This document shows, in pieces, positions 1 through 3,765 of a stretch of DNA of 27,287 bases. The stretch is from a virus. Positions within the stretch are counted from its first letter, which is position 1. Each line of letters opens with the position of its first letter. A program made the position numbers and the translations under genes. A model generated the notes under the pieces. That model was not told the DNA's origin. It ran no database searches and saw only the letters and a list, made by a program, of their open reading frames with translations. The stretch lies in the IMG/VR virus record IMGVR_UViG_3300015168_000002, positions 1-27,287 of that record; one strand, 5' to 3'.

Positions 1-495
1 GTGGTCGGCGGAGTCGGCAAAACAAACCGAATCACAACTGCAACGTGATAGCCTTTTATCAATTATTCGTGGTTTGAAATAAACATTACTGATCAGGGCT
101 AATAGCCCGAAACGCTAGACGTATTTTACCTAGCGTATAATGTTGATAGCAAACAGACCTATATTCGGTTGGTCACCGCCTGTAGTTTGCTAGATTCCGG
201 TTTCCGTACCGATTACGGATAGTGAGTAGCTGGCACAGAGGACGATCTGCACGAATTAGCGAGTCAGAATGGTAAACCCTGTAGGTTTCCAAAACTTCGG
301 AAACGAAAGTTTGATTGTCGCCCGCGCCATTTTCGGTAGCCAGCGCAGCCTAGCCGAAGTGCTCTTTGACTGACATACTCAATTGCAGGCGGAAGTTTCG
401 CCATAATAGTCTGACGTATGCAGTATTAATGACTAGCCTAAATGACCTTGGCGTTAGTTAAATGAATATGCCAAGCCGGATCAAGGTAACCGGCA

Positions 496-548
496 GTTAG
501 ACGGCAGTGTCTTGAAGCGCTGCGCCGTCAACTTTATAGGACTTCAAG
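496..548 (+). other. RNA pseudoknot within the structured RNA
   Basis: Stem 1 pairs GTT-a-GACGGC (496-505, one bulged A) with GCCGTCAAC (524-532). Its loop carries CTTGAAG (511-517), an exact complement of CTTCAAG (542-548) nine nt beyond the stem. The second strand directly abuts the next helix (549-554/566-571), which would allow coaxial stacking. Both stems are read directly from the sequence; their formation in the cell is inference. Confidence 0.6.
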
Positions 549-613
549 CTAGGTTTGGTTGCAGCACCTAGGCAAAACGCACGGTAGAAATACGCCGGAT
601 ACCGTAACCGGCT

Positions 614-710
614 TTTATATCAACGGGCGTCAACCATGACACGTAATGGCGTGCGCGGGAACAGGCAGCGAAAGCGTCGATGCCGATAAGCTGGCGTCCG
701 TTGATATAAA
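614..710 (+). other. 19-bp terminal hairpin of the structured RNA, next to the tRNA
   Basis: Bases 614-632 pair with 692-710: 13 uninterrupted Watson-Crick pairs followed by 6 more including two G-U pairs. The 59-nt loop holds two smaller hairpins, 634-637/646-649 and 664-667/681-684. The second contains GC-GAAA-GC (668-675), a GNRA tetraloop. The helix ends 7 nt before the mature tRNA 5' end, so RNase P cleavage at 717/718 could define the RNA's 3' end (inference). Confidence 0.65.
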
Positions 711-717
711 TAATTTA

Positions 718-802
718 GCCAGCGTGACGAAACTGGTAGACGTAGCGGACTTAAAATTCGCAGGCTTAGGCTGTGTCGGTTCGATTCCGACCGCTGGCAC
801 CA
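718..802 (+). tRNA. tRNA-Leu (anticodon UAA)
   Basis: The acceptor stem GCCAGCG (718-724) pairs with CGCTGGC (792-798), followed by an encoded A-CCA (799-802). The anticodon stem GCGGA (745-749)/TTCGC (757-761) closes loop CTTAAAA with anticodon TAA at 752-754. The T arm is GTCGG (775-779), loop TTCGATT, CCGAC (787-791). The 13-nt stretch 762-774 gives the long variable arm of class II tRNAs, consistent with Leu. It would read UUA and UUG. The CCA end lies 3 nt before the Shine-Dalgarno sequence of the next gene, so tRNA and mRNA are probably cut from one transcript. Confidence 0.95.
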
Positions 803-815
803 ACTAAGGATTAAC

Positions 816-1061
816 ATGGCATTCGAAAGTAAAGACCCAGAGACTTTAAAAGTCGTGCACAATTATGGCGAAGCAATGGCAACACTTCCTGCCTCGCTAG
901 TCGCTGAACTAAATACAATCATTGACGAATCATGCAAGCCTGCTGAATTTCGTATGCGCCATATGAACGCAGAACACGGCGAAATCGGTCGCATTATTGC
1001 TGTCGGTATTATGCTTCGCATGACGCTATTGATAGAAGAATTTCCGGGCGAAGAAGAATGA
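816..1061 (+). CDS. small phage protein of unknown function (81 aa)
   Basis: I do not recognise this protein. It starts at ATG with AAGGA (806-810) 5 nt upstream, a good ribosome binding site. It has no signal peptide or clear membrane segment; residues around IIAVGIMLRMTLLI are hydrophobic, and the C-terminus is acidic (EEFPGEEE). The predicted character is a small, mostly helical soluble protein. Its stop overlaps the next start as ATGA (1058-1061), so it is translationally coupled to the Sak4-like ATPase, which suggests a replication or recombination accessory role. That role is inferred from position only. Confidence 0.75.
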   Translation: MAFESKDPETLKVVHNYGEAMATLPASLVAELNTIIDESCKPAEFRMRHMNAEHGEIGRIIAVGIMLRMTLLIEEFPGEEE

Positions 1062-1771
1062 ACCAACGCGATCTAGTACCAGCAAACCAACTAGCGCAAC
1101 AATCAGGCGTCAAAGGCATTTTTTATGGCCCTCCCGGTTCTGGCAAAACTCCATTGATCGAAACAGCACAAAGGCCGTTTATGTTGGTTTGTGAGCCGGG
1201 CATGTTGTCGATGCGTCAAAGTCGTGTGCCATGCTATGCCGCGCCAGATGGCAAACGCATCGGTGAGTTTTTCGATTGGCTATTTCAGTCTCGCGAAGTC
1301 GATCAATTCGACACTGTGGGTATTGACTCAGGTAGCGAGCTTGCAGAAATCATCTTGCGTGAAAAGTTCGCAGTGAATAAAGACGGGCGTAAAGCCTATG
1401 GTGAAATGTCGAAACAATGCACAGATTGGTTTGATGGTTTGTACCATTTGAAGCGCAAACACGTTTACATAATTTGCAAACAGAGTGCGCTTGAAACTGT
1501 GTCAACGTCATTTATTGGCGGTGTTCCTACAATTACGACGAACCGCAGGGTTCAACCGTATTTCCCCGGTCAAGATTTGCCGATGAAAGTAAGCCACAAA
1601 TACGATTTGGTCTGCCAAGTGAATAAAGGGCCAATCCCCGGAGTTACCGGTGAATGGCCCTATTTTCGGTGTAAAGGCAGTGATACAATAACTGCCCGCG
1701 ACCGTAGCGGTAAGCTTGACGAATTCGAAGAACCGAACTTGACGAAACTATTCGCTAAAGCAATGTCATAA
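1058..1771 (+). CDS. Sak4-like phage ATPase (AAA_24-type nucleotide-binding protein)
   Basis: A 237-residue RecA-fold ATPase of the phage nucleotide-binding protein type. Walker A is GPPGSGKT (residues 24-31), and the probable Walker B is the strand ending in D90 (FDTVGIDS). Short proteins of this kind, in phages that also carry a DUF669-like protein, are described as Sak4 single-strand annealing/recombination proteins working with a single-strand-binding partner; such a partner is the next plus-strand gene here. The start overlaps the previous stop by ATGA. A hairpin at 1627-1661 inside the gene looks terminator-like but is probably coding coincidence. Alternatives are a more general AAA helper ATPase of replication. 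The ATPase fold is firm; the Sak4 role is probable. Confidence 0.8.
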   Translation: MNQRDLVPANQLAQQSGVKGIFYGPPGSGKTPLIETAQRPFMLVCEPGMLSMRQSRVPCYAAPDGKRIGEFFDWLFQSREVDQFDTVGIDSGSELAEIILREKFAVNKDGRKAYGEMSKQCTDWFDGLYHLKRKHVYIICKQSALETVSTSFIGGVPTITTNRRVQPYFPGQDLPMKVSHKYDLVCQVNKGPIPGVTGEWPYFRCKGSDTITARDRSGKLDEFEEPNLTKLFAKAMS

Positions 1772-2113
1772 CATTACTTTGACTTCGGCGGCACAGGCGG
1801 ATTATCGCCTTGCGGTCTAGGATTCGGATTCGGCGGATTCGTTGGGTTATGAACCGGCGTGTTTTTGTTTGCCGGTGTGATGGGTGAAGTAGTCATATTG
1901 ACTTTCAGAGTTTAGGGGAATTACTAGATTAGGCTAATTCATATCAAATATATGTAGGACAAACTACAATATTTATGTCAGTCAATGCCTGAGCCGGAAG
2001 AATATCGCTACCGAGTTTCGAAAGAAATAACGGGATACCGGCAGGCGCCATTTACTGAAAAGTAACGTCAACGTCGCAACGTCAACGCGGCATCTTTGCA
2101 AAGAAAGTTATTC
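1772..2113. other. intergenic region with dyad, direct repeat and possible promoter
   Basis: This 342-nt gap in an otherwise packed module holds a possible 40-codon minus-strand frame (1774-1896), a TTGACT hexamer at 1898-1903 with only poor -10 matches 16-17 nt on, and a TACAAT hexamer at 1965-1970. It also has a dyad ATA-TGTAG/CTACA-a-TAT at 1950-1972 with loop GACAAA. The 10-nt direct repeat AACGTCAACG occurs at 2064-2073 and 2078-2087, just before the single-strand-binding gene. A 26-codon plus-strand frame (1985-2065) lacks a ribosome binding site. The region may carry a promoter or operator for the genes that follow; nothing is certain. Confidence 0.35.
1774..1896 (-). CDS. possible Pro/Asn-rich 40-residue peptide, antisense to the replication module
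   Basis: The minus-strand frame runs from ATG (1896-1894) to TAA (1776-1774) and encodes a low-complexity peptide rich in Pro and Asn (NPPNPNPRP in the middle) ending PPVPPKSK. It fills the larger part of the gap between two plus-strand genes. No strong Shine-Dalgarno sequence is seen and its orientation opposes its neighbours. The biased composition could be that of a real small linker-like phage protein or chance in a short frame. No function is assigned. Confidence 0.3.
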   Translation of the reverse strand: MTTSPITPANKNTPVHNPTNPPNPNPRPQGDNPPVPPKSK

Positions 2114-2830
2114 ATGGCACAACTTCCACAACGATTCAACGCACAGCAAGTGCGACCTGCAGACCCTGACGGCGGTGGCGGATTGCCTGTTGGCAATCAT
2201 TTTGTTTACATCAAGAAAACAGAAGTAGTTGCGAACAAAGACCCAAGCACGGGTCATCAACTCGTGCTGACGATTGCTTGCTATGAAGGCCCGGCAAAAG
2301 GTTCTGAAGCGCTCTATCGTCTGAATTTGTATCACACCGGTTCGCAAGAAGCTGTGCGGATTGCTTACGAACAGCTTTCCGCTATTTGTCATGTCACCGG
2401 CAAATACGACATTGGCGATACTGACGAACTGCAGAACTCGCCGTTTATCGCTGTCGTTGAAAGCCAAAACGATCCACAATATCCGACTCGGACGCAAATC
2501 AAGGGCGTACTTGACAAGAACGGCGACAAGCCCGGACAGCCGGGTGTCAAAGGTAAGGTTGCGGCACCTAGCGCAGCACCTGCACCGAGCACACAAGCGC
2601 CCGCGCCTGCCCCGTGGACTCCCGGTACTGCAGCAGCGCCTGCCGCACCCGCAACTGCAGCTTGGGGGCCGTCTAGCGCCGCACCGGCAGCAGCACCCGT
2701 AGCCGCGCCCGGCTTTGCTCCGCCAGCGGCTGCACCTGCACCTGCTGCCGCTGCTTGGACACCGGTTCCTGCCGGTCAACCTGCCGCCACGCCGGGCAGC
2801 GGCGCACCGGCTTGGGCTGCACCGCGCTAA
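2114..2830 (+). CDS. DUF669-like single-strand DNA-binding protein with Ala/Pro-rich tail
   Basis: A 238-residue protein starting at ATG 2114 (MAQLPQRF). The frame is open upstream to a TTG at 2096, but ATG 2114 matches the usual start of such proteins. Residues about 1-130 resemble phage DUF669 proteins, including the segment LYRLNLYHTGSQEAVRIAYE and a following CHVTGK. DUF669 proteins are thought to be phage single-strand-binding proteins that partner Sak4-type ATPases, and this gene follows one. Residues about 150-238 are a low-complexity, Ala/Pro-rich, presumably disordered tail, as in many SSBs; it ends GAPAWAAPR rather than in the acidic tip of bacterial SSB. A terminator hairpin follows 20 nt after the stop. 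Confidence 0.75.
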   Translation: MAQLPQRFNAQQVRPADPDGGGGLPVGNHFVYIKKTEVVANKDPSTGHQLVLTIACYEGPAKGSEALYRLNLYHTGSQEAVRIAYEQLSAICHVTGKYDIGDTDELQNSPFIAVVESQNDPQYPTRTQIKGVLDKNGDKPGQPGVKGKVAAPSAAPAPSTQAPAPAPWTPGTAAAPAAPATAAWGPSSAAPAAAPVAAPGFAPPAAAPAPAAAAWTPVPAGQPAATPGSGAPAWAAPR

Positions 2831-2849
2831 TCGTCACTAGATGACGCTA

Positions 2850-2880
2850 GACACCGGCATGACTGCCGGTGTCTTTACTT
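2850..2880 (+). terminator. strong Rho-independent terminator
   Basis: The perfect 10-bp stem GACACCGGCA (2850-2859)/TGCCGGTGTC (2864-2873) has loop TGAC and is followed by TTTACTT. It sits 20 nt after the DUF669-like stop and only 9 nt before the ATG of the nuclease gene. It may end most transcripts from the upstream operon or act as an attenuator or processing site, with partial read-through to the nuclease and helicase. Confidence 0.85.
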
Positions 2881-2889
2881 GAAGCTTCC

Positions 2890-3765
2890 ATGACACAAGA
2901 ACTTGATCTAGGCGCACCCGGCGTAGCTAAGAAAGTTGCGCGGGAAGTTCTGGAAGATATCGACCGCGCGGCGGTAGAACTCTACACAGACGGACACAGA
3001 AAACACCTAGGCGCGTCGATCATTGGTGAAACGTGTTACCGCAAACTTTGGTTTGTTTTCCGTTGGGTTTATAACTTTCCGTTTCAAGGTAGACAGTTGC
3101 GCCTATTAAATCGAGGGCATCGCGAAGAAATTCGCTTCAACGAATGGCTTGCACACAGCGGATATGATGTTCGCCCGCTTGACCCCGAAACAGGCAAACA
3201 ATGGCGCGTTAACGCTATTGGTGGTCACTTTGGTGGTTCGCAAGATGGTGAAGTAATTTTACCTGCGAAATTCAATTATCCGTATCCGTTACTATTAGAA
3301 TACAAGACTAACGGAACAGGACCAAATTTCAACAAGCTACTTGATAAAGGTATTGTAGTTGCGAAGCCGCAGCACTTTGACCAAATGAATACGTATGGAT
3401 ACATCAAAGGCTACAAATGGGGCCTTTATCTGAACGTATGCAAGAATGATGATAATATTCATTCTGAAATAGTCAAACTAGACCATGACCGAGGTAAGAA
3501 ACTAGAAGACAAAGCCAGAGTAATAATTCTGTCTCAAGTACCACCGCCGCGCGCTGCTGAAAATCCCGCCGCCGAAGTCTGCAAATATTGCAATTTCAAA
3601 GACGTTTGCTATTACCGTCAACCTGTTGAAAAGAATTGCCGTAGCTGTAGTTACGCATCGGCTCAGGACAACAAAGAATGGCACTGCGGTAAATGGAATG
3701 CAATTATTCCTGAAGCCGCTATTATTGCCGGTTGTCCCGAATGGATAAGCATTTACAAGCCCTAA
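2890..3765 (+). CDS. Cas4/RecB-like PD-(D/E)XK nuclease with probable Fe-S cysteines
   Basis: A 291-residue protein. The start is placed at ATG 2890 (MTQELD); an in-frame GTG at 2869 lies inside the terminator stem and is unlikely. The order of motifs matches RecB-family nucleases: GASIIGETCYRKLW (residues 41-54), H77 in GHREE, D119 in GSQDGE, and E137-x-K139 in LLEYKT. C49 together with the C-terminal CKYCNFKDVC fits the four-cysteine 4Fe-4S arrangement of Cas4/AddB nucleases. Further cysteines follow (NCRSCSYA and HCGKW). The likely job is end resection producing single strands for the Sak4-like/DUF669-like pair. No cas1 or CRISPR array is nearby, so this is a phage recombination nuclease rather than a CRISPR gene. 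One nt separates it from the helicase. Confidence 0.85.
   Translation: MTQELDLGAPGVAKKVAREVLEDIDRAAVELYTDGHRKHLGASIIGETCYRKLWFVFRWVYNFPFQGRQLRLLNRGHREEIRFNEWLAHSGYDVRPLDPETGKQWRVNAIGGHFGGSQDGEVILPAKFNYPYPLLLEYKTNGTGPNFNKLLDKGIVVAKPQHFDQMNTYGYIKGYKWGLYLNVCKNDDNIHSEIVKLDHDRGKKLEDKARVIILSQVPPPRAAENPAAEVCKYCNFKDVCYYRQPVEKNCRSCSYASAQDNKEWHCGKWNAIIPEAAIIAGCPEWISIYKP

Follow-up and report, generated by a model that had tools for sequence, protein, structure and literature searches.

A hammerhead fold with C at core position 8 heads the probable leader of a phage tRNA-Leu and replication operon

The gene-free start of a 27,287-base phage sequence carries a hammerhead fold in which the conserved G at core position 8 is replaced by C. 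We read positions 1-717, with a probability of roughly two in three, as the untranslated leader of a siphophage tRNA-Leu/Sak4 replication operon, with a hammerhead-derived, inactive junction at its 5' end and a hairpin at its 3' end (Table 1). The window, meaning the whole stretch of DNA analysed, is an entire IMG/VR virus record; position 1 is therefore a contig edge, and the 5' end of 1-717 is no real boundary. The plus strand of the record encodes a siphophage replication module (Sak4, SSB, Cas4-type exonuclease, helicase, endonuclease VII, clamp and DNA polymerase), tail genes lie on the minus strand, and protein relatives with roughly 45-54% identity come from Lokivirus, Titanvirus and Septimatrevirus phages.

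A sequence-only reading of the DNA had proposed some 710 nt without a gene, followed after 7 nt by a tRNA, and both points were borne out. Neither strand of 1-717 holds a gene-sized ORF, the longest ORF lying fully inside it on either strand being 46 aa, and the hairpin ends at 710, with a tRNA-Leu(UAA) beginning at 718. On the minus strand, an 80-aa frame and two smaller frames extend through the tRNA. The frame left open at the contig edge, over 1-82, is not significant by itself, and no protein match was found for the putative gene end; as the end of a gene, it would parallel the phage hammerheads that are sited behind a stop codon. Because tRNA-Leu(UAA) adjoins Sak4, upstream or downstream, in ten related phages (L005, L006, L018, L032, L063, L078, L079, L081, L086 and L093), the tRNA is probably an older neighbour than the non-coding stretch. 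At the same place, known relatives carry MazG and a Gam-like or hypothetical gene, and the closest of them, L032, has a short reading frame, not the stretch, ahead of its tRNA-Leu. Consensus searches revealed no plus-strand promoter in 1-3000 and no terminator in 1-717, and none was seen that would delimit a discrete plus-strand transcript of ~700 nt; for this reason, we assume that the leader would be transcribed by read-through from upstream.

Further into the module, the 325-nt gap between Sak4 and SSB (1772-2095) falls within the record's most stable tile (1541-2257, z -5.8) and contains a 40-aa proline-rich minus-strand ORF (1774-1896) and a CGTCAACG repeat at 2066-2087. SSB itself stands out in its C-terminal half (2500-2830), where the G+C content climbs to as much as 0.75, against about 0.46 in the remainder of the genome, and an alanine/proline-rich tail is encoded.

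Table 1. Features at the left end of the window, with the evidence for each
Feature	Positions	Strand	Evidence
Contig edge, possible 3' end of an upstream gene	1..82	+	frame 2 open to TAA at 80-82 (ORF list with open ends)
Extended hammerhead-like fold: outer helix 72-76/150-154, internal loop, stem I	72..154	+	minimum-energy fold, z -4.1, 0/200 shuffles
Hammerhead core fold, 63 nt, type I	82..144	+	models R1 and R2; descriptor scan
Core position 8 = C (conserved base G)	94..94	+	alignment of 29 distinct hammerheads
Non-coding stretch, predicted multibranch domain at 330-570	145..613	+	no ORF; folding z; no homologues
3' hairpin domain, 19-bp helix 614-632/692-710 closing two small hairpins	614..710	+	inverted repeat; z -4.9
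tRNA-Leu, anticodon UAA, CCA encoded	718..802	+	ARAGORN, Rfam, sequence
81-aa protein, no assigned function	816..1061	+	ORF list; neither a PHROG match nor a Pfam match above threshold
Sak4-like annealing protein, first recognised replication-module gene	1058..1771	+	PHROG 124, E 5e-35

The element near the 5' end has the layout of a type I hammerhead, a three-way junction that forms both alone (72-154) and inside the 717-nt fold. Stem I pairs 82-88 with 138-144 (7 bp), stem II 96-100 with 104-108 (5 bp) and stem III 112-118 with 130-136 (7 bp), and the junction linkers measure 7, 3 and 1 nt (CUGAUCA at 89-95, GAA at 109-111 and A137, the H17 position). Read along the strand, the parts follow as AACAUUA, CUGAUCA, GGGCU-AAU-AGCCC, GAA, ACGCUAG...CUAGCGU, A and UAAUGUU, with the stems in the order I, II, III, I and the core elements CUGAUCA, GAA, A-U and A all present. 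With the phage and prophage type I hammerheads (Perreault et al. 2011, PMC3088659; L105-L134), the element shares the three stems, the 7/3/1 linkers, CUGAU-A, GAAA, the A15.1-U16.1 pair, a GUA before the cleavage site and an intergenic position in a phage. It differs from them in having C at core position 8 and in its surroundings: whereas phage hammerheads are followed by a start codon at a distance of no more than some dozens of bases, behind this one come 570 non-coding bases and then the tRNA. A descriptor that was written after the motif had been seen gave two equally good matches (core at least 10/11, at least 19 pairs) in 338 Mb of shuffled sequence, a chance rate of about 3e-4 per 27-kb window, both strands included. 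The large ornate RNA proposed by the sequence-only reading holds in part: an RNA element does lie on the strand it named, beside the tRNA, but what can be recognised is this 63-nt fold, which that reading had overlooked, and not the whole stretch.

The element is homologous to phage hammerheads. Scanning viral contigs with a pattern taken from the window's own core, with G or C allowed at position 8, returned 35 loci, 24 of which were found by script to fold as complete hammerheads, mostly between phage genes. A covariance model, R1, built from 14 of these 24, scored the window element at 46 bits (E 7e-12), with the phage hammerhead members at 28-71 bits. To offset the origin of the pattern, a second model, R2, was made from four hammerheads that R1 had found outside the reach of the window-derived pattern; it scored the element at 36.4 bits (E 3e-8), the next best place in the window reaching 11.7 bits. 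The stems of the family covary, both sides changing in 13 of 16 pairs, with 95% of cells paired. Most of the collected hammerheads lie just past a stop codon, with an ATG a short way downstream; the 94 loci of related phages contained none. Four viral contigs (L105, L109, L117 and L113, from records G058, G048, G051 and G063) each carry three hammerheads of type I, and a number of these are flanked by short genes. The Rfam hammerhead families gave no match at E 10, and a consensus phage hammerhead (L129, 336-393) also stayed below cut-off, the Rfam 15 hammerhead model giving it 19 bits against a cut-off of 56; likewise, eight loci with consensus hammerhead cores had no Rfam hammerhead match at gathering. 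Because the Rfam models miss consensus phage hammerheads, library scans undercount them.

Taken as a whole, 1-717 folds more stably than its shuffles (plus strand -237 kcal/mol, z -4.2; minus strand, z -3.4), but hardly exceeds the rest of the genome. When the genome was divided into 717-nt tiles (74 over both strands), the stretch came fifth with its minus strand and sixth with its plus strand, coding tiles equal it and reach z -4, and the mean z of 120-nt local windows is -0.81 in the stretch vs -0.50 elsewhere (Mann-Whitney P 0.06). The 17 helices put forward earlier are not beyond what this genome gives, as the 12 perfect helices of at least 6 bp in 1-717, vs 6.4 in shuffles, are equalled in 7 of 36 genome tiles. 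The finer details suggested alongside them survived unevenly: one GAAA tetraloop, at 300-303, is predicted, the one at 587-590 closes only a 3-bp stem and that at 670-673 is no tetraloop in the minimum-energy fold, and a pseudoknot can be drawn from the helix list (500-505/524-529 with 511-517/542-548) but competes with the best nested fold. Three regions stand out by folding, namely 72-154 (z -4.1), 330-570 (z -3.3, with boundaries chosen afterwards) and the hairpin region 610-714 (z -4.9, 0/200 shuffles), whose 19-bp helix ends 7 nt before the tRNA; 155-609 gives z -1.75. Because a known ROOL RNA scored z -1.1 in the same test and coding tiles reach -4, folding energy neither proves nor refutes an ornate RNA, and we discarded it as a proof.

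According to one alternative, which we consider unlikely, all of 1-717 forms a single large structured RNA from a so far undescribed class, GOLLD- or ROOL-like in kind; the C8-silenced, non-cutting hammerhead fold would serve as its 5' domain and the 19-bp hairpin as its 3' domain, with the tRNA directly behind. It would account for the roughly 570 bases of non-coding sequence in so compact a genome, for three well-defined domains (72-154, 330-570 and 610-714) and for the tRNA 7 nt downstream, and ordinary stability is no counter-argument, given that a true ROOL is also weak in folding. Against it stand a stability that is unexceptional for this genome, the promoter and terminator searches, which found neither, and the missing kin. 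No homologue of 145-717 appeared in cultured phages, 50 related records, viral-contig pattern scans or bacterial genomes, searches that would miss a divergent RNA, and consequently there is no covariation evidence for its helices. The whole records of the 50 related phages and 767 bacterial-genome searches, covering one class and phylum, held no copy, with no positive control for a divergent one; exact patterns from the 3' side had no homologue in viral contigs, in the last scan among the matches listed, which makes this a weak negative; and the stretch was absent from 80 viral loci around Sak4, 3 viral loci around the polymerase and 4 genome loci. Distant blastn of the stretch against phages and plasmids returned chance or tRNA matches only, a 38-nt match to phiHQ (E 0.7) being taken as chance. 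The 470 non-coding bases downstream of the element (145-613) are not accounted for by a relic hammerhead. These may be part of a new large RNA class, and such a third class in the stretch is possible but unproven.

Within the hammerhead, the sole departure from the consensus core (C3 U4 G5 A6 N7 G8 A9, G12 A13 A14, A15.1-U16.1, H17) is C94 in place of G8. In an alignment of 42 matches, 29 of them distinct, all 28 other distinct members have G at this position, and the C8 core pattern, where it occurred in 30 other viral contigs, never belonged to a hammerhead. A C94 that stems from misassembly or from a minor strain variant, in a phage with an ordinary active, transcript-splitting hammerhead, would fit the 28/28 G and the otherwise complete core. 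Single-base errors in assembled contigs are rare, however, and we regard this reading as rather unlikely.

Phage hammerheads that flank genes have been described, as have active core variants and inactive mutants (Perreault et al., PMC3088659). According to PMC11167929, G8C alone abolishes hammerhead cleavage and the C3G/G8C double change partly restores it. Position 3 of the window element is C, with no compensating G, and a pair of the C3-G8 type is therefore not restored. Since C8 faces C3, the C3-G8 pair is gone, as is the general acid, and cleavage should be absent or very slow. Self-cleavage after H17, where the ancestral site would have lain between 137 and 138, is predicted from the G8C literature to be absent. 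The same single core change, with C3 kept, is found in the laboratory G8C knock-outs (Martick and Scott 2006, as cited in PMC11167929), which are engineered, whereas the one in the window is natural (or an assembly artefact) and resides in a phage.

It is conceivable, if decidedly unlikely, that the hammerhead still cuts with C8 in place, helped by contacts outside the core between the stem I internal loop and loop II, or that it is slow on purpose. Such an internal loop occurs in natural hammerheads, and natural core variants with residual activity are on record, one of them in a phage (A6C in Bcep176; PMC3088659); yet tested hammerheads lose activity by G8C alone (PMC11167929), and position 3 offers no compensating G. 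The element is best read as a hammerhead that has kept its fold and has probably lost its activity, or nearly so, and because one defining base is absent we file it as hammerhead-like and not as a working hammerhead. That the 7-bp stems are intact although the core is dead could mean that activity was lost recently, that base 94 is a sequence error or that the fold is under selection for a different role.

A reading of the stretch as regulatory DNA, such as a replication origin, or as a decayed gene is highly doubtful. The stretch does open the replication module, has inverted repeats and folds similarly on both strands, but 1-717 lacks an iteron-like repeat family, stops occur in all frames, the fragments searched had no protein match, and the hammerhead fold points to RNA of one particular strand. 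A divergent GOLLD or ROOL RNA, the class membership first suggested for the stretch, is largely refuted: 1-717 resembles GOLLD (RF02032) in being a large non-coding stretch beside a phage tRNA and ROOL (RF03087) in length and tRNA neighbour, but neither model matched at E 10 anywhere in the record, while the ROOL model gave a known ROOL 130 bits. Unlike GOLLD, the stretch shows no match in sequence or structure, and unlike ROOL it came without model match, found homologues or sign of a discrete transcript; Rfam scans of the stretch and of parts of it, with the gathering cut-off as well as with E 10, reported the tRNA alone.

We return to the leader with an inactive, hammerhead-derived junction. 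In other phages, hammerhead elements of this kind sit between two genes, where their presumed task is to divide the long transcript of the phage into shorter mRNAs. An intact ancestor would have cut after A137, parting the upstream transcript from the leader, the tRNA and the replication genes, and the present-day fold may be a relic or a structural cap at which cleavage would be absent or very slow. The 19-bp hairpin at 614-710 probably keeps the tRNA precursor folding independently and may be a processing site.

What is new here is a natural G8C hammerhead fold heading the leader of a phage tRNA and replication genes. Hammerheads in phages are familiar, whereas to our knowledge their purpose is not, and a fold that survives without its catalytic base separates a structural role from a cutting role. 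Moreover, because Rfam misses phage hammerheads of this kind, a negative result from the public library says little about small ribozymes in phage contigs.
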